A stretch of 6,104 nt of DNA, taken from the NCBI GenBank assembly GCA_001412365.1, contig LKUE01000184.1, forward strand, positions 1 to 6,104. The letters run 5' to 3'. Below the pieces are notes generated by a model. That model worked only from the letters and a program-made list of their open reading frames with translations, was not told the origin of the DNA and searched no databases. The DNA comes from Desulfuromonas sp. SDB (lineage in GTDB: Bacteria; SDB-A). Made by a program: the position numbers and the translations under genes. Positions 3 through 5,913 of the stretch are shown in pieces (positions within the stretch are counted from its first letter, which is position 1; every line of letters begins with the position of its first letter).

Positions 3-551
3 CTCATTTTTTTCTCCACTGCCTTTGCCCTGATCCTCCTCATTCTGTCAGGAGGTTGTCAGGGTAATGGCGATGTAATCTCAGGAGCTATAGGCACTGC
101 TGCTGATCTTGCTTCTCAAACTCAAACTGTTGAAATACAGGCAGATCAAAATGTAACCAATGGGGCAGACAGCTCAGCTCCCGCCACTCAACCTACCCCT
201 ACCGATGAGTTTTCACCGGAAGAAGTAGAACAAATGCTGGCTACAGAAGAATTTCACTATACCAGCGCCAGAAATCCTTATAGATCGCCGCTGGAACAAC
301 TTGAAAAATCAAACCTTTTAAATCCTAAAGATGCCATCCTGGAAGGTGTTATCTCAGGCCCCCGGGGACTTCTGGCTATTGTACGGAGTTTGGAAGGCAA
401 ACATTGGTTATTGCGGGAAGGAGACCGAGTTAGCGGAGGGAACGTAGCGGAGATAACTCCGGAAGCAGTGACCTTTGTTTTTGAAACTTATGGATCGATT
501 TCCAAAGTAGTAATAACCAGACAAAGCTCTACAACCGAGGAGGGGCAGTGA
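3..551 (+). CDS. pilP: PilP-like type IV pilus inner-membrane lipoprotein (5' partial)
   Basis: PilP is the lipoprotein that links the inner-membrane PilN/PilO platform to the PilQ secretin in type IV pilus assembly. The frame is open from the left edge, and 182 codons are visible. The first ATG (234) is internal: upstream lies a hydrophobic run ending in a lipobox-like LSGGC, with the candidate lipidated Cys at base 57 (visible residue 19). A Q/T/S/P-rich linker follows, then the family-typical RNPYRSPLE segment at visible residues 90-98, then a small beta-rich C-terminal domain (about residues 110-175, including SGPRGLLAIVRS and LREGDRV). The stop overlaps the GTG of pilQ by 4 bases, as expected for a pilMNOPQ operon. 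Serine at lipobox position -3 is not the commonest residue. The true start lies outside the window. The PilP assignment rests on the motif, the C-terminal fold pattern and the adjacent secretin. Confidence 0.88.
   Translation, partial: LIFFSTAFALILLILSGGCQGNGDVISGAIGTAADLASQTQTVEIQADQNVTNGADSSAPATQPTPTDEFSPEEVEQMLATEEFHYTSARNPYRSPLEQLEKSNLLNPKDAILEGVISGPRGLLAIVRSLEGKHWLLREGDRVSGGNVAEITPEAVTFVFETYGSISKVVITRQSSTTEEGQ
537..545 (+). promoter_or_regulatory. Strong Shine-Dalgarno fixing the pilQ GTG start
   Basis: GAGGAGGGG lies inside the last codons of pilP and leaves a 4-base gap from its GGAGG core (539-543) to the GTG at 548. It supports GTG over the later Met codon at residue 9. It also keeps the two lysines that begin the signal peptide. 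The 4-base overlap of GTG with the pilP TGA suggests translational coupling. Confidence 0.8.
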
Positions 552-2200
552 AAAAATTAATTTTAATATTAATGTCACTACTAGGTCTGGTTGGATTGAT
601 TAATGCAACTAATTTAAATGATATTACCATCTCTCCAACCTCCCAGGGTACTCAGGTTTTGTTAGAGACCGATGGGACCTTAACCTACCGGGAATACCTT
701 TCCGGAAACAACGTAGTGATTGATTTTTACGATACCGACAACAATCTTCAAGCTTCTGCATTCCCCATAATCAACCGGGGTTCGATAACCGGTATAGGTA
801 TTGCTGATTTTTCTTCTAGTAATATTCTCAGGGTGGTTATTGAGACCGAAGGGTTAAAAAATTATAATGTAGTGCCATCCAGGTCTAATTTGGCACTAAA
901 CATCCAACCCAGCGTATCTTCAGGCAGTTTTCCGGTATGGAGAGCATCGGAAAGCATTTCCGAACTGGAGTATGATAATTTTTCCTACGGGGGATTGCCC
1001 CGGGGAGCTTTTACCGGAGCAGGCGGACTGATCAGTATGGACCTGGATCAAGCGGATATACTATCTGTTCTCAGGGCAATTGCTGATTACAGCGGCAGGG
1101 ATATAATTGCTTCCCCCGGAGTTTCAGGAACAGTGACCTTGAAATTAAACAATGTCACCTGGTGGCAAGCCCTTCAGGCAATTTGTCATTCCCATGGATT
1201 TGGAATTTCAGAAGAAAATGGAATTCTGCTGGTGGGAAATCAGAGTGAATTCGACAATTGGAGACAAGCCCAGGAAAGTGCAGAAAGAACCATCTACCGG
1301 GTTTACACCTTGGAATACACCACCCCCGATAATATTCTACCATCACTGCAGAATTTAATTTCAGAGAGAGGACAAATATCTGTGGACGCCCGAACCAACT
1401 CCCTGGTAGTCAGCGATATTGAGTCCCGGCAACAGGCAGTTCAGGATATGATCGGCATTCTGGATAAAGCCACTCCTCAAGTGGAAATCATCGCCAAAAT
1501 AATTGATGTCAACACCGACGCTTCCATTGACTTCGGGATTACCTGGGGAGTAACTGGATTGGATTTCTTCGAGTACAACACTCAAGGTGATGTTCAATTT
1601 GGAGATTTAACTCAAACTGAAGAAAGAGGCAGAATTGGTATTCAGGTGGGAACCATACAGAGTTTTGCAAATATCCAAACTTTAATTGATGCTATGGAAA
1701 GAGACGGCAAAGCCAGAACTATTGCCAGCCCTCATATTACTGTTCTGGATAATACTACCGCTACCATTCTGGGAGGTAAGAGATTCGGGGTTCAGGTTAG
1801 AGGTTCAGACGGTTCAGTAACCATTGAATTCTACGATGCGGGAACAAAACTGGAAGTCACTCCCCATGTCAATGTTATGGATGAAATAAATTTAGAAATT
1901 AGAACTGAACTTTCTGATGTTGACATATCTTCAGTTCAGGCAGGTACCCCCATTATCACCACTCATGAAGCCCAAACCACTCAACGGGTAATGGATGGTG
2001 AAACTGTAGCCCTGGGGGGATTTGTAACTGAAACTGAAAGTAATTCTGAAACCGGTATTCCTATTTTGAAAAACATTCCCCTGATCGGCTGGCTGTTTAA
2101 AAATCACAGCACATCCACCACTCAGAGGGAAGTGCTGATATTTATTACTCCTCACATTATCCGCCCCCATCAGGTGGAGACCCAAACTTCACCAGAATAA
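548..2200 (+). CDS. pilQ: Type IV pilus secretin PilQ
   Basis: PilQ forms the outer-membrane ring through which the pilus fibre leaves the cell. The 550-residue product starts with a signal peptide (1-20, MKKLILILMSLLGLVGLINA). An AMIN-type peptidoglycan-binding domain follows (about 24-119), then a spacer, an STN/N0 domain (about 160-231, with the SGRDIIASPGVSGTVTL segment), one N1/NolW domain (about 248-308, with QISVDARTNSLVVSD) and the secretin barrel domain (about 311-540). The barrel carries the typical RTIASPHITVLDN, TTHEAQTTQRVMDGETVALGG and GIPILKNIPLIGWLF segments and ends in ITPHII. All domains are intact. With a single AMIN and a single N1 it is shorter than the roughly 700-residue PilQ proteins of Pseudomonas or Neisseria. 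It lies directly after pilP and before a strong terminator, so it is the last gene of its operon. Family assignment is firm. Confidence 0.96.
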   Translation: MKKLILILMSLLGLVGLINATNLNDITISPTSQGTQVLLETDGTLTYREYLSGNNVVIDFYDTDNNLQASAFPIINRGSITGIGIADFSSSNILRVVIETEGLKNYNVVPSRSNLALNIQPSVSSGSFPVWRASESISELEYDNFSYGGLPRGAFTGAGGLISMDLDQADILSVLRAIADYSGRDIIASPGVSGTVTLKLNNVTWWQALQAICHSHGFGISEENGILLVGNQSEFDNWRQAQESAERTIYRVYTLEYTTPDNILPSLQNLISERGQISVDARTNSLVVSDIESRQQAVQDMIGILDKATPQVEIIAKIIDVNTDASIDFGITWGVTGLDFFEYNTQGDVQFGDLTQTEERGRIGIQVGTIQSFANIQTLIDAMERDGKARTIASPHITVLDNTTATILGGKRFGVQVRGSDGSVTIEFYDAGTKLEVTPHVNVMDEINLEIRTELSDVDISSVQAGTPIITTHEAQTTQRVMDGETVALGGFVTETESNSETGIPILKNIPLIGWLFKNHSTSTTQREVLIFITPHIIRPHQVETQTSPE

Positions 2201-2245: not shown

Positions 2246-2291
2246 TTTAGTTTTCCTTGCATTAATTTCATTTCATTGCTAAAAATACTTG

Positions 2292-3170
2292 ATGATATTA
2301 TGGTGTTTATTATTATGTTGGGGGACACCTAATTCTGGTGTAGAACCCCATATCATGCCGGATAATTATTGTTTGTTAACAATTCCGGACACTGTTTTTG
2401 CGCATCAAAGACTGGCACTGTCACCTTATTTATTGGATAACTCAAAAGTTTCCATCCATCTAGATGACACCACCATAGATTGTCCCACCGGCACCAAGTT
2501 ATCCCAGCAGAAACTGCTGATGGGATATGTGGAGATTCCCTATCCGGGGATTGAATTCACTGAAGCAGTTTTACAGATCAGCAGCCCCGGTTTTAACTGC
2601 ACATATCCTCTATGTATCTACAGTGAAAGATGGATGGATATTTATCTGGACGAAGATCTTCAGTTCACCATTTTATGGGAAGGAGCAAGACCTTTGACTT
2701 ATAGCTTAATCTCCAGCGGCAGAGGAAAATCACCAACTGAATGCGCCCACTCTAAAGTATACGGCAAACAGGTTTCTGCTGAATTTTACGATGGAGGTGA
2801 AATGAAATGGTGGATGGCTATCCAACGAGCTTATGATGTTACCGTGATAACTGACAGCGGTGAAGAAAAATACTTTGAGTACTTAGAAAACGGCACTCAT
2901 GCTCCTCTCAGGGGTACCTATCATCAAGTGGGATCTCCAGCCAGTCACGGCTGTGTCCGGAATCCCCTGGCTAAAATCTTCTGGGATCATCTACAGGTCA
3001 ATGATCGGGTGGAGTTGCATTACCGAAATTCCGGCTCCAGTTATTCCTTTGATCAGATCAATCCGGCGTGGAGATATATCCAATGGGATCCAATCCTGGA
3101 AGTTGATTCATCGTTGATCCAGTACATGCAGGGAGCCTGGGAAAGAATACAAATAGAATTTAATTTATAA
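2292..3170 (+). CDS. Secreted L,D-transpeptidase, YkuD family
   Basis: YkuD-family enzymes form 3-3 peptidoglycan cross-links, or attach proteins to meso-diaminopimelate, through an active-site cysteine in the periplasm. Numbered from ATG 2292 (292 residues), the YkuD domain runs from about 113 to 245. It contains SHGCVRN at 218-224 with catalytic Cys221. His203 lies 14 residues before the SHGC motif, matching the family pattern H-X(14-17)-[S/T]HGC. The first 12 residues are hydrophobic (ILWCLLLCWG), resembling a short uncharged signal segment. Residues about 25-110 look beta-rich, hold Cys27, Cys64, Cys103 and Cys108, and match no domain I recognise. There is no LysM or PG-binding module. 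The start is uncertain: TTG 2289 adds one residue, ATG 2355 would remove the hydrophobic start, and none has a clear ribosome site. The gene follows the pilQ terminator and precedes lpoB by 28 bases, so it probably leads the next operon. Confidence 0.85.
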   Translation: MILWCLLLCWGTPNSGVEPHIMPDNYCLLTIPDTVFAHQRLALSPYLLDNSKVSIHLDDTTIDCPTGTKLSQQKLLMGYVEIPYPGIEFTEAVLQISSPGFNCTYPLCIYSERWMDIYLDEDLQFTILWEGARPLTYSLISSGRGKSPTECAHSKVYGKQVSAEFYDGGEMKWWMAIQRAYDVTVITDSGEEKYFEYLENGTHAPLRGTYHQVGSPASHGCVRNPLAKIFWDHLQVNDRVELHYRNSGSSYSFDQINPAWRYIQWDPILEVDSSLIQYMQGAWERIQIEFNL

Positions 3171-3198: not shown

Positions 3199-3774
3199 AT
3201 GAAAAATAAATGGGCCCTTTTAATTTCACTGCTCCTGTTAGTGGGCTGCTCATCTCGAACCGTTACCAGAATTGATACTGATTTAGTTACTGATCTAAGC
3301 GGGAAATGGAATGATACAGATTCCCGTTTAGTAGCTGAAGCAATGGTTACTGAATGTCTGGATTCTCCATGGTTAACCATGTACATGGAAAGAAATGCTT
3401 CCAAACCTACCGTAATTGTAGGTACAATCCAAAACCGGAGTTATGAACATATAGATGCAACCACTTTCATGAAAGATATTGAACGTGATTTCGTCAATTC
3501 AGGTCTGATCAGAATTGTCGCCTCAGTTGAGGAAAGAGAAGATTTAAGAGATGAAAGATGGTCCCAACAAGGATTTGCTTCCCCTGAAACCAGAACTGCC
3601 TTAAGAAATGAATACGGCGCTGAATATATGATGATGGGAACTATCACTTCAATTATTGATGAGGCAGAAGGAGTAAGAGTAAACTACTATCAGGTAGATC
3701 TGGAATTATTGGATATTGAAACAACTGAAAAAATTTGGATGGGCTCAAAAAAGATAAAAAAGATTATTGAATAA
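3199..3774 (+). CDS. lpoB: LpoB-like penicillin-binding protein activator, lipoprotein
   Basis: LpoB is an outer-membrane lipoprotein that reaches through the periplasm to activate the bifunctional synthase PBP1b. The 191-residue product opens with KNK, a hydrophobic run and lipobox LVGC with Cys17. Ser at +2 and +3 fits outer-membrane sorting, if enterobacterial rules apply. The body shows family-typical blocks: DLSGKWNDTDSRLVAEAMV (32-50), SKPTVIVGTIQNRSYEHID (68-86), DFVNSGLIRIVAS (97-109), GAEYMMMGTITSI (140-152), and YQVDLELLDIETTEKIWMG with KKIKK at the C-terminus. The disordered Pro/Gln-rich linker of the E. coli protein is absent, so the lipid anchor connects almost directly to the globular domain. 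The upstream L,D-transpeptidase and downstream COG3014-like lipoprotein support a cell-wall role. Activation of a particular PBP is inferred from family only, and no PBP gene is in the window. Confidence 0.9.
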   Translation: MKNKWALLISLLLLVGCSSRTVTRIDTDLVTDLSGKWNDTDSRLVAEAMVTECLDSPWLTMYMERNASKPTVIVGTIQNRSYEHIDATTFMKDIERDFVNSGLIRIVASVEEREDLRDERWSQQGFASPETRTALRNEYGAEYMMMGTITSIIDEAEGVRVNYYQVDLELLDIETTEKIWMGSKKIKKIIE

Positions 3775-3777
3775 TTT

Positions 3778-3784
3778 GTTATTA
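3778..3784 (+). other. Left cassette core site (GTTATTA), candidate recombination junction
   Basis: GTTATTA fits the integron core form G^TTRRRY at five of seven positions and shares GTTAT with the site at 4405-4409. It lies 4 bases after the lpoB stop and 15 bases before the acetyltransferase ATG, which is the usual place for the start of a gene cassette. The predicted crossover lies between 3778 and 3779. Confidence 0.5.
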
Positions 3785-4405
3785 AGAGAATAATGAATAT
3801 TAAGGGAAATAAAATAGAATTAAAATCTGCCAAAGAATCGGATCGAGAAAAAATATACACTTGGCTTACACAATCAAACTTAACTCCCCCTATGATGGGA
3901 CTTCCGAACTACCCAGACCACCCGATTCCTTCTTGGGAAGAATTCTGCAAGGATTATACTTTTTCCTTTTTTAACATTTCTGGTGATGGCAAAGGGAGAA
4001 ATTATATTATTGTCGTCGATGGTGAAGAAATCGGAACCATTGGATATGACCTTCTCGATAAACAAAACGGCAGGGTTATCATGGAGTTATGGATTCGATC
4101 TGAAAAATATTACGGGCACAGCTATGGCAGTGATGCTTTAAATACACTTTGCAACTATATACATACAAATTATAGTATCAAAAATTTCATAATAAGTCCT
4201 TCCTCAAGAAATAAACGAGCAATAGCTGCATATAAAAAGGCTGAATTCAGATATAAAAAATTCCTGAACAAAGAAGAACAAAAAAAGGAATTTAAATTAT
4301 CCGAATACGATGATATTATATTAATGATAAAAAAACTTATAACAAAGCAATGCATCTGACTTTTTCCCGCCGCTTAGCTTTGGGAAAAAGCAGTTGATTT
4401 TCTCG
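3779..4405 (+). mobile_element. Putative single integron-type gene cassette carrying an acetyltransferase
   Basis: The 627-base segment has cassette architecture. It starts at a GTTAT core, holds one gene whose ATG lies 14 bases in, and ends in a foldback attC-like site that contains the stop codon. It has no promoter I can see. By hand count the gene body is about 34% G+C against about 39% for the adjacent lpoB. No integrase or attI is in the window, so it would be a lone cassette, either inserted at a secondary GTT site or left from a lost array. Removing it brings lpoB and the following ORFs close together. This is a structural inference; a chance hairpin next to a transferred gene is the main alternative. 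Confidence 0.55.
3793..4359 (+). CDS. GNAT-family N-acetyltransferase
   Basis: GNAT enzymes move an acetyl group from acetyl-CoA to an amine; the substrate here is unknown. The 188-residue product has an N-terminal IELKSAKESDREKIYTWL segment (8-25), a central VDGEEIGTIGYDL strand pair (75-87), MELWI (97-101), a CoA-loop region YYGHSYGSDAL (106-116), and SSRNKRAIAAYKKAEF (137-152), the usual C-terminal N-x-x-A-I-x-x-Y block. The CoA-loop consensus [RQ]xxGxG reads YGHSYG, with Tyr107 and Ser110 in place of the Arg/Gln and first Gly, so cofactor binding may be altered. It resembles RimJ/RimL- or AAC(6')-like members, but I cannot assign resistance or protein acetylation. The start has a weak AAGAGA ribosome site. 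The TGA stop lies inside the attC-like site, as in integron cassettes. Lys/Ile/Asn-rich coding and low G+C set it apart from its neighbours. Transcription probably comes from the lpoB side. Confidence 0.85.
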   Translation: MNIKGNKIELKSAKESDREKIYTWLTQSNLTPPMMGLPNYPDHPIPSWEEFCKDYTFSFFNISGDGKGRNYIIVVDGEEIGTIGYDLLDKQNGRVIMELWIRSEKYYGHSYGSDALNTLCNYIHTNYSIKNFIISPSSRNKRAIAAYKKAEFRYKKFLNKEEQKKEFKLSEYDDIILMIKKLITKQCI

Positions 4406-4411
4406 TTATAA
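4337..4411 (+). other. attC-like recombination site (foldback)
   Basis: The outer boxes TTATAAC (4337-4343) and GTTATAA (4405-4411) are perfect reverse complements. Inside them CTG-A-CTTTTTCCC (4356-4368) pairs with GGGAAAAAGCAG (4382-4393), leaving A4359 bulged, as extrahelical bases are in attC stems. The apical loop is 13 bases (4369-4381). AAAGCAA (4344-4350) can also pair with TTGATTT (4394-4400) around one G-A mismatch. The 75-base length is within the usual attC range. The outer boxes match RYYYAAC/GTTRRRY only partly (five of seven each), and the region between outer box and inner stem is longer than in textbook attC sites. It is a poor terminator candidate because no T-tract directly follows the stem. 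Confidence 0.55.
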
Positions 4412-4413
4412 CT

Positions 4414-4557
4414 ATGAAAAGCACAGATATAGGAAAGCAGATGATCGAAGAAGGCAAACAGGTACAGGGGAACCGAAAGATATCGCCGTTTGGTCAACGG
4501 ACATTTCGCTCCGCTCCATCCCCACCAGTGATGGCTGAAGATCTGCTAAAACGGTAA
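4414..4557 (+). CDS. Possible small ORF, 47 residues, unknown
   Basis: This frame runs from an ATG 2 bases past the cassette's right core site to a TAA 6 bases before the next gene's ATG, in that gene's own frame. The product is basic and Pro/Ser-containing, beginning MKSTDIGKQMIEEGKQ and including SPFGQRTFRSAPSPP. It has no signal peptide, membrane segment or domain I recognise. There is no convincing ribosome site. With the cassette removed it would start 12 bases after the lpoB stop, so it could be an original small operon member, a remnant of a longer gene, or chance. The region between the flanking genes (4360-4563) is only about 200 bases, and I found no promoter in it. Confidence 0.3.
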   Translation: MKSTDIGKQMIEEGKQVQGNRKISPFGQRTFRSAPSPPVMAEDLLKR

Positions 4558-4563
4558 AACACG

Positions 4564-5913
4564 ATGTCACGTTTTTTAATCTTAATATCTATAGCATTTA
4601 TTGGCGGTTGCGCCTCAAGCTATCAGCGAATGGAACCAGTTCGAACCTATCTTTACCAACATCAATACCAGAAGGCGGTGGAAGTATTTGACAGTTTAAA
4701 TATTTCTGAACAAAATGCTGTTTCTCTCGATCATGCCAACCGGGGATTGTTGTTGCATCTGAATAAAGATTATATCGAAAGTAATGCTGAATTGGAGATA
4801 GCGGAAACCTACATGGATCGTATCCGGGAGGAAAATTTAAAACAGATCATATCTTCAATGCTTATAAATGAATATTCTCTTCCCTATGCGGGTGAAGACT
4901 ATGAAAATACAATGATAAATTTTTATAAACTATTTAATTACGTATTATTGAATGACTTTCAAGAAGCCCTGGTGGAATGCAGAAGAATTGACCATAAATT
5001 AAATGTTCTCTATGATTTCTATTCAGAAAACTTAACTTATCGAGAGGACGGATTTGCCAGATATCTTGCCGGCATCATCTATGAACATCTTGGTCATTAT
5101 GACGATGCTTTTATAGAATATTTTAAATCCTATCATATCTACAAAGATCTCTATTATCCCAACTACAATTTAAGCCCTCCCCAGGGTTTGATTTTAAGTT
5201 TAATTAAAACTGCAGTAGTAACCTCCCGCACTGATCAAATTCAGGATTTATTATCAAATCCCAGGTATCAATCTATCCAAACCTATATCCAGACATTTCA
5301 AGACAGTTTAAATCATTCCCCAGTTGATTCAGCATGTGAGATTATTTATATTTTAGAAACAGGGGAACTGCCTCATAAGCAGGAAATTAATGTATATTTA
5401 GATATAGACGATGATCATCCCCAGCCGGTTGCCCTCTCTCTTCCCACCATCATTCCTCATCCCTCCGCCATAACTTCTGGCTATCTAAACTCCGGCAACA
5501 ATCAGGCACCTCTGGAATTAGTGGAAAATCTGGGAGCCATTGCCGCATTAAGTCTAGAAGATCACCGGGGAAGAATTATTGTAAGAGCAGCCGCCCGAAC
5601 TGGATTAAAGATATTAGCCTCGGAAGCAGGAGAATTCATCGGTGACCAGATCGCCGATGAAGAAAACTCCTGGCTGGGTGATTTAATCGGTTCAGCAGTC
5701 AGCATTTTCGGAGCAGCAACAGAGCATGCTGACTTAAGAAGCTGGTCCTTGCTTCCCGATAGAATATTTCTGGGAAGACTGGCAATCAGCCCCGATCAAA
5801 CCAATTTTACCGTAAATTTACATTTGTACGGATATTCCGACATTGAACTCACCTATTCTATTGATCCCAAACCTGGTGAAAAAATATTCATAAAAGAAAG
5901 GGTGTGGTATTAG
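4564..5913 (+). CDS. COG3014-like large lipoprotein with TPR-like N-terminal half
   Basis: The 449-residue product has a short signal ending in lipobox IGGC (Cys16, then Ala-Ser-Ser), so it is probably lipid-anchored. Residues about 20-200 are helical with TPR-like pairs: YLYQHQYQKAVEVFDSL (29-45), GLLLHLNKDYIESNAELEIAE (61-81), YKLFNYVLLNDFQEALVECRR (121-141) and FARYLAGIIYEHLGHYDDAFIEYFKSY (164-190). The pattern DYENTMINFYKLFNYVLLND, with ECRRIDHKL and FARYLAG, is what I recall from COG3014 proteins. So is the late ADLRSWSLLPDRIFLGRL (389-406). The C-terminal half is mixed alpha/beta with a Gly/Ala-rich helical stretch (about 322-386). The biochemical function is not established as far as I know; the neighbouring lpoB suggests a cell-envelope or peptidoglycan role. 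The ATG lacks a clear ribosome site, and an in-frame TAA at 4555 blocks extension upstream, so translation may depend on coupling. Confidence 0.82.
   Translation: MSRFLILISIAFIGGCASSYQRMEPVRTYLYQHQYQKAVEVFDSLNISEQNAVSLDHANRGLLLHLNKDYIESNAELEIAETYMDRIREENLKQIISSMLINEYSLPYAGEDYENTMINFYKLFNYVLLNDFQEALVECRRIDHKLNVLYDFYSENLTYREDGFARYLAGIIYEHLGHYDDAFIEYFKSYHIYKDLYYPNYNLSPPQGLILSLIKTAVVTSRTDQIQDLLSNPRYQSIQTYIQTFQDSLNHSPVDSACEIIYILETGELPHKQEINVYLDIDDDHPQPVALSLPTIIPHPSAITSGYLNSGNNQAPLELVENLGAIAALSLEDHRGRIIVRAAARTGLKILASEAGEFIGDQIADEENSWLGDLIGSAVSIFGAATEHADLRSWSLLPDRIFLGRLAISPDQTNFTVNLHLYGYSDIELTYSIDPKPGEKIFIKERVWY

Follow-up and report, generated by a model that had tools for sequence, protein, structure and literature searches.

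Integron gene cassettes can enter DNA outside integrons at secondary sites, as in the case of aadB in the RSF1010-derived plasmid pIE723 and in an Acinetobacter plasmid (cited in PMC10127599). The consensus for secondary sites has been given as GWTMW (PMC4618277) and as GNT or GWT (PMC4618277, PMC10127599). In Escherichia coli, experiments with cassette libraries have yielded insertions at attG sites (Loot et al., Nat Microbiol 2024, as described in PMC12444791; also cited in PMC12901181). Cassettes lacking an adjacent integrase are also recognized as CALINs, which have been described in Xanthomonas (PMC12444791) and are called by IntegronFinder 2.0 by default from at least two attC sites (PMC9024848).

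IntI-driven insertion outside integrons has so far been demonstrated chiefly by experiment and for plasmids that carry resistance. A genome that has an integrase, cassette arrays and several lone cassettes next to housekeeping genes, and whose relatives have none of these, lets one ask how frequently genes brought in by integrons turn into permanent host genes, and which target sites serve in nature; tools that by default need two attC sites would miss such insertions.

Here we describe such a genome, starting from a 6,104-bp stretch, one entire contig (C184), which is referred to below as the window. An earlier note, made from the sequence, had proposed that an integron-type cassette carrying a GNAT gene lies between lpoB and a COG3014-like gene, and the attC site, the cores and the empty locus in relatives reported here bear this out.

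Results

The window belongs to a 3.14 Mb assembly (G000; 433 contigs, 98.7% complete). Three same-family genomes (G001-G003) served as relatives for comparison, all other matches being from the same domain only. The order YkuD-domain gene, lpoB, COG3014-like gene is kept in all three, and the contig is therefore chromosomal DNA of this lineage. Orthologues of the COG3014-like gene (a label taken over from the earlier note) are 49-52% identical in these genomes; Pfam gives a TPR match alone for this gene, and a weak one. Features of the window and of related loci are collected in Table 1.

Table 1. Coordinates of features in the window and, where an L number is given, at other loci of the same genome.
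Feature	Position	Strand	Remarks
Secretin gene	548-2200		
YkuD-domain gene	2289-3170		
lpoB-like lipoprotein gene, upstream host gene	3199-3774	+	PF13036 LpoB 6e-36; adjoins COG3014-like gene in G001-G003
Left crossover point, host G3778 / cassette T3779	3778-3779	+	core GTTATTA
Intact integron gene cassette, 627 bp	3779-4405	+	G/TT cores at both ends, one ORF, 3'-end attC; absent from family relatives
GNAT N-acetyltransferase gene, 188 aa	3793-4359	+	PF13302 4.3e-12
attC recombination site	4337-4411	+	R'' 4337-4343, R' 4405-4411; 34.5 bits; architecture 0/1000 shuffles
Probable second cassette, decayed, inferred extent	4406-4540	+	DNA homology to C421 cassette from core GTTATAAC; absent from G001-G003
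47-codon ORF	4414-4557	+	first ~29 codons related to C421 cassette ORF
Putative attC remnant of second cassette	4503-4546	+	4503-4531 match to C253 attC; inferred right junction G4540/A4541
COG3014-like lipoprotein gene, downstream host gene	4564-5913	+	orthologues directly after lpoB in G001-G003
Integrase ORF, 414 aa	L009 (contig C253) 61-1305	-	~100 N-terminal residues precede family match
C421 cassette	L112 4789-5166		between S4-domain gene and peptidase-like gene
C38 cassette	L111 4637-5102		before POT transporter gene
C67 cassette	L107 54-700		before HAD-family and dapB genes
C35 lone attC	L113 465-526		before mgtE; 5' core not clear

The cassette is inserted 4 nt past lpoB, with crossovers at G3778/T3779 and G4405/T4406 (a slash marks the crossover point here and below). 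The GTTAT that the earlier note had seen 15 bases upstream of the ATG occupies 3778-3782 (ATG at 3793), and its second copy is present at the far end, at 4405; six of the seven positions of the 5' core, GTTATTA, agree with the GTTATAA expected from R''. GTTAT alone was rejected as evidence, as it occurs 11 times within the window. G+C is 33.0% in the GNAT gene and 33.5% in the cassette versus 37.5% in lpoB, values close to the ~34% versus 39% estimated beforehand.

The sole ORF of the cassette starts 14 bp inside it, 18 nt downstream of the lpoB stop, and ends inside the attC site, with its stop codon (4357-4359) in the left arm. The protein, a predicted GNAT N-acetyltransferase, is full length and exceeds the PF13302 gathering cut-off (47.3 bits versus 25.4). 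Its closest solved structure is an aminoglycoside acetyltransferase (6bff, 1.5e-6); against AAC(6') families the best score was 33 bits, short of the curated cut-off of 250. Its likeness to AAC(6') and spermidine acetyltransferases is only weak. The plasmids, phages and viral contigs searched held no relatives of this protein, and in genome contigs the sole relative found, matching at 60% over 86 aa, is a truncated copy from an Actinomycetota MAG of groundwater origin. This copy (JACQXZ010000096.1, 1091-1384) sits between attC-like sites, and the MAG has 14 attC matches. Integron cassettes usually consist of a single ORF that lacks a promoter; promoter-like hexamers are present in this one, hexamer scans being weak evidence.

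The attC site is laid out as R'', 5 nt, 3 bp, an unpaired G, 6 bp (one of them a mismatch), an unpaired A and a stem, the left arm reading TTATAAC-AAAGC-AAT-G-CATCTG-A-CTTT and the right arm AAAG-CAGTTG-ATT-TTCTC-GTTATAA; by the same architecture scorer, the aadA1 attC has an identical arrangement (GTT-C-AAGCCG-A-CGCC). R'' and R' each match the respective consensus, RYYYAAC or GTTRRRY, at 5/7 positions and pair with each other at 7/7. The features tested for attC membership, namely R''/R' and L''/L' inverted pairs, extrahelical bases and a bottom-strand fold, are present. The foldback that had been noticed around the stop codon is likewise real: with single-stranded DNA folding, the bottom strand of 4325-4420 gives z = -3.1, and 1 of 200 shuffles was as good. 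On the architecture scale, where known class 1 attCs score 16-19.5, 4337-4411 is the top site of the window at 19.0, a value reached by none of 1,000 Markov shuffles of the window (mean 14.75, maximum 18.0).

A covariance model (R1) was constructed from 10 class 1 integron attCs (public plasmids) and seven attCs of this genome, from C253 and C363 and none from the window. Variable loops were shortened in some attCs of the R1 alignment, from which the window site was left out, and its paired positions show covariation far in excess of that in shuffled and slid controls. The attC covariance-model check that the earlier note had suggested then placed the window site far above background (34.5 bits; E 4.9e-6 over 44 kb, 3.5e-4 genome-wide). 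Model R3, comprising eight class 1 attCs only, recovered seven other sites in the genome, and the window site was not among its hits at E<=1; the attC claim therefore rests on the mixed model R1. Rfam gave no match in the window.

The earlier note had called the cassette a lone one, which does not fit what follows it. From the core GTTATAAC at 4405, the next ~92 bp match the start of the C421 cassette of the same genome, the homology starting exactly at the core (GTTATAACTATG vs GTTAGAACCATG; local score 83, shuffled maximum 40), and the tail of the segment is attC-like. The 47-codon ORF protein resembles that of the C421 cassette ORF (48% over 29 aa, E 0.01), and its remainder is probably read-through of a decayed attC. 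Ungapped, 4503-4531 matches the C253 attC at 22/29 positions (score 30, reached by 0/300 shuffles; shuffled maximum 29). The fold of 4400-4600 showed nothing beyond chance (z -0.97), and the second attC therefore looks non-functional; it has decayed below covariance-model detection, so that the window holds one detectable attC. Probably, then, 4406-4540 is a second cassette that has lost an internal part and whose attC has decayed; its right junction would lie at G4540/A4541, as placed by C253 attC spacing from a weak match. Because G001-G003 are also without 4406-4563, the second piece is probably part of the gained DNA, and the insertion is probably longer (3779-4540) than the 3779-4405 first delimited.

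In G001-G003, 9-22 nt separate the lpoB stop from the COG3014-like ATG, with no GNAT gene and no 4406-4563, so that the comparison with relatives proposed beforehand finds the locus in all three without the acetyltransferase; these genomes are ~50% identical at the protein level, and the empty site in them is not nucleotide-exact. The gene order is indeed compact once 3779-4405 is removed, as the earlier note had stated, but 4406-4563, absent from relatives, stays behind. With 3779-4540 taken out, the joined flanks read lpoB-TAA-TTTG/ATCTGCTAAAACGGTAAAACACG-ATG, so that 27 nt separate the two genes, much as in the relatives. Under two-cassette insertion, the empty site is thus predicted to read lpoB-TAA-TTTG-ATCTGCTAAAACGG..., with a putative recipient core, TTTG/ATCTGC, that fits GWTMW, its right junction depending on a weak attC remnant. 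The empty site suggested previously, TTTG-TTATAAC, is probably wrong, as GTTATAAC would be the start of the second cassette.

A TIGR02249 search of the genome identified one integron integrase above the cut-off (C253, 64-1002; 396 bits versus 265). The array that follows it has attCs at 2285-2356, 4348-4426 and 5110-5172 and a further match at 2430-2520; the attC at 4348-4426 (matched stretch 4340-4384) aligns with the left half of the window attC (83% over 47 bp, E 1.6e-6). Model R2, which contains all attCs found in the genome, the window's included, and is no test of the window site, gave 20 matches at E <= 10, just the last two being weak (0.08, 0.09). In the three family relatives, R2 returned nothing below E 0.8, R1 no attC at E<=1, and the integrase search no integron integrase above the cut-off. 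The genome search that the earlier note had recommended has thereby turned up an integrase, arrays and further attCs, and the isolated attC without an integrase that it had envisaged is not what this genome holds. No intI lies in the window itself, the intI being on C253, and with one detectable attC the window falls below the default CALIN setting of IntegronFinder 2.0; in this assembly of 433 contigs, IntI and window are linked by binning and attC similarity only.

The C253 cassettes (L009 1458-8692) resemble a defence-gene store, and include genes for a TIR-domain protein and an OLD/GajA-like AAA ATPase, a PD-T7-4 match (E 3e-88) and a type IIG restriction-methylation gene. Arrays without an integrase on their own contig occur on C363 (L058 1-6000), C223, C233 and C348, with a MazEF-like gene pair and a HEC-09-matching gene among them; these arrays may be assembly-split parts of the C253 integron.

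At least three further single cassettes, on C421, C38 and C67, lie beside unrelated chromosomal genes, with one attC each and 5' cores that agree with the expectation from their own R'' at 7/7, 7/7 and 6/7 positions, respectively. The C421 and C67 cassettes adjoin family-conserved genes; the genes flanking the former are in the same order in relatives, where the cassette ORF has no match. The right junctions read G/ATTAAT (C421), G/ATGAAT (C38), G/TTGTGT (C67) and, as inferred, G/ATCTGC (window), and all four fit the published secondary-site consensus GNT/GWT; array attCs end in GTT. When the host bases to the left are included, TTG/AT is shared by three of the four sites, numbers so small that this is a lead only. 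All four cassettes are oriented like the downstream gene. One genome contains at least four sites fitting single-cassette export (window, C421, C38, C67). It is conceivable, although we lean against it at present, that IntI in this lineage routinely exports single cassettes to chromosomal intergenic gaps, at WTTG/AT-like sites and in the direction of the downstream gene; if true, the integron would feed genes permanently into host operons, beyond storing them.

Discussion

The locus is best explained, with high probability, by an off-integron insertion at a secondary site, carried out by the genome's own IntI, that left the GNAT cassette and a second one. The C253 IntI would have recombined the folded bottom strand of the cassette attC with an attG-type site, TTTG/ATCTGC, in the short stretch separating lpoB from the COG3014-like gene, outside any integron. 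The product would have been a small off-integron array, GNAT cassette (3779-4405) followed by second cassette (4406-4540), both read in the operon direction, with the second later losing most of its body. Because the GNAT gene starts 18 nt behind the lpoB stop, co-transcription is probable; position and strand suggest expression from the lpoB promoter, by which the gene would have become fixed as an ordinary operon gene. Since the genome contains an integrase and arrays, we regard the locus as an off-site insertion in an integron-bearing genome, not an integrase-free orphan.

If the GNAT cassette alone had been inserted, 4406-4563 would be long-standing host DNA containing a small gene, and GTTATAAC would be the host recipient core; GTTATAA does pair perfectly with R'' TTATAAC, and deleting 3779-4405 alone gives a compact order. 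We nevertheless consider this unlikely, given that 4406-4563 is absent from relatives as well, that its match to the C421 cassette sets in precisely at the core, and that its tail is attC-like. Rather less probable is decay in place, in which a larger integron once here lost its integrase and most of its cassettes to leave a CALIN. Two tandem cassettes, one of them decayed, would suit such a history, as would the arrays lacking intI on their contig (C363, C223, C233, C348), but no attI or intI trace is found between lpoB and the COG3014-like gene, the remaining host gap (~27 nt) resembles that of the relatives, and the same pattern, small and off-site, recurs in the lone cassettes on C421, C38 and C67.

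A non-integron origin, in which the GNAT gene arrived by horizontal transfer and its terminal hairpin is attC-like by chance, is strongly disfavoured and barely credible: the genome-wide covariance-model E value (3.5e-4), the close likeness to a bona fide C253 attC of the same genome, the matching 5' core and an architecture score reached by 0/1000 shuffles weigh against it, even though GNAT genes move by many routes and the class-1-only model R3 was negative for the window.

Insertion by the genome's own IntI, our preferred reading, has several counterparts among known systems. Like CALINs and single attC sites lacking an integrase, the window has attC-bearing cassettes away from the intI of the same genome; CALINs are called by default from at least two attCs, whereas the window contains one intact attC and one apparently decayed, and single-attC insertions occur elsewhere in the genome. 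In the aadB insertions, as in the window, one cassette has entered with precision outside an integron, at a recipient other than attI. They involve resistance cassettes on plasmids, however, while the window is chromosomal and comes from an uncultured lineage with its own IntI; unlike aadB, moreover, its cassette was placed between genes of the cell envelope and has a probable decayed cassette in tandem. With the attG insertions the window would share IntI-mediated entry of cassettes into chromosomes at short non-classical sites; those insertions come from experiments, whereas the present case is natural, probably old and read from sequence, with several sites per genome. Off-integron insertion by IntI at attG sites is thus already known; what this genome adds is a natural multi-site example from an uncultured lineage, and it is this multiplicity within one genome that merits attention.
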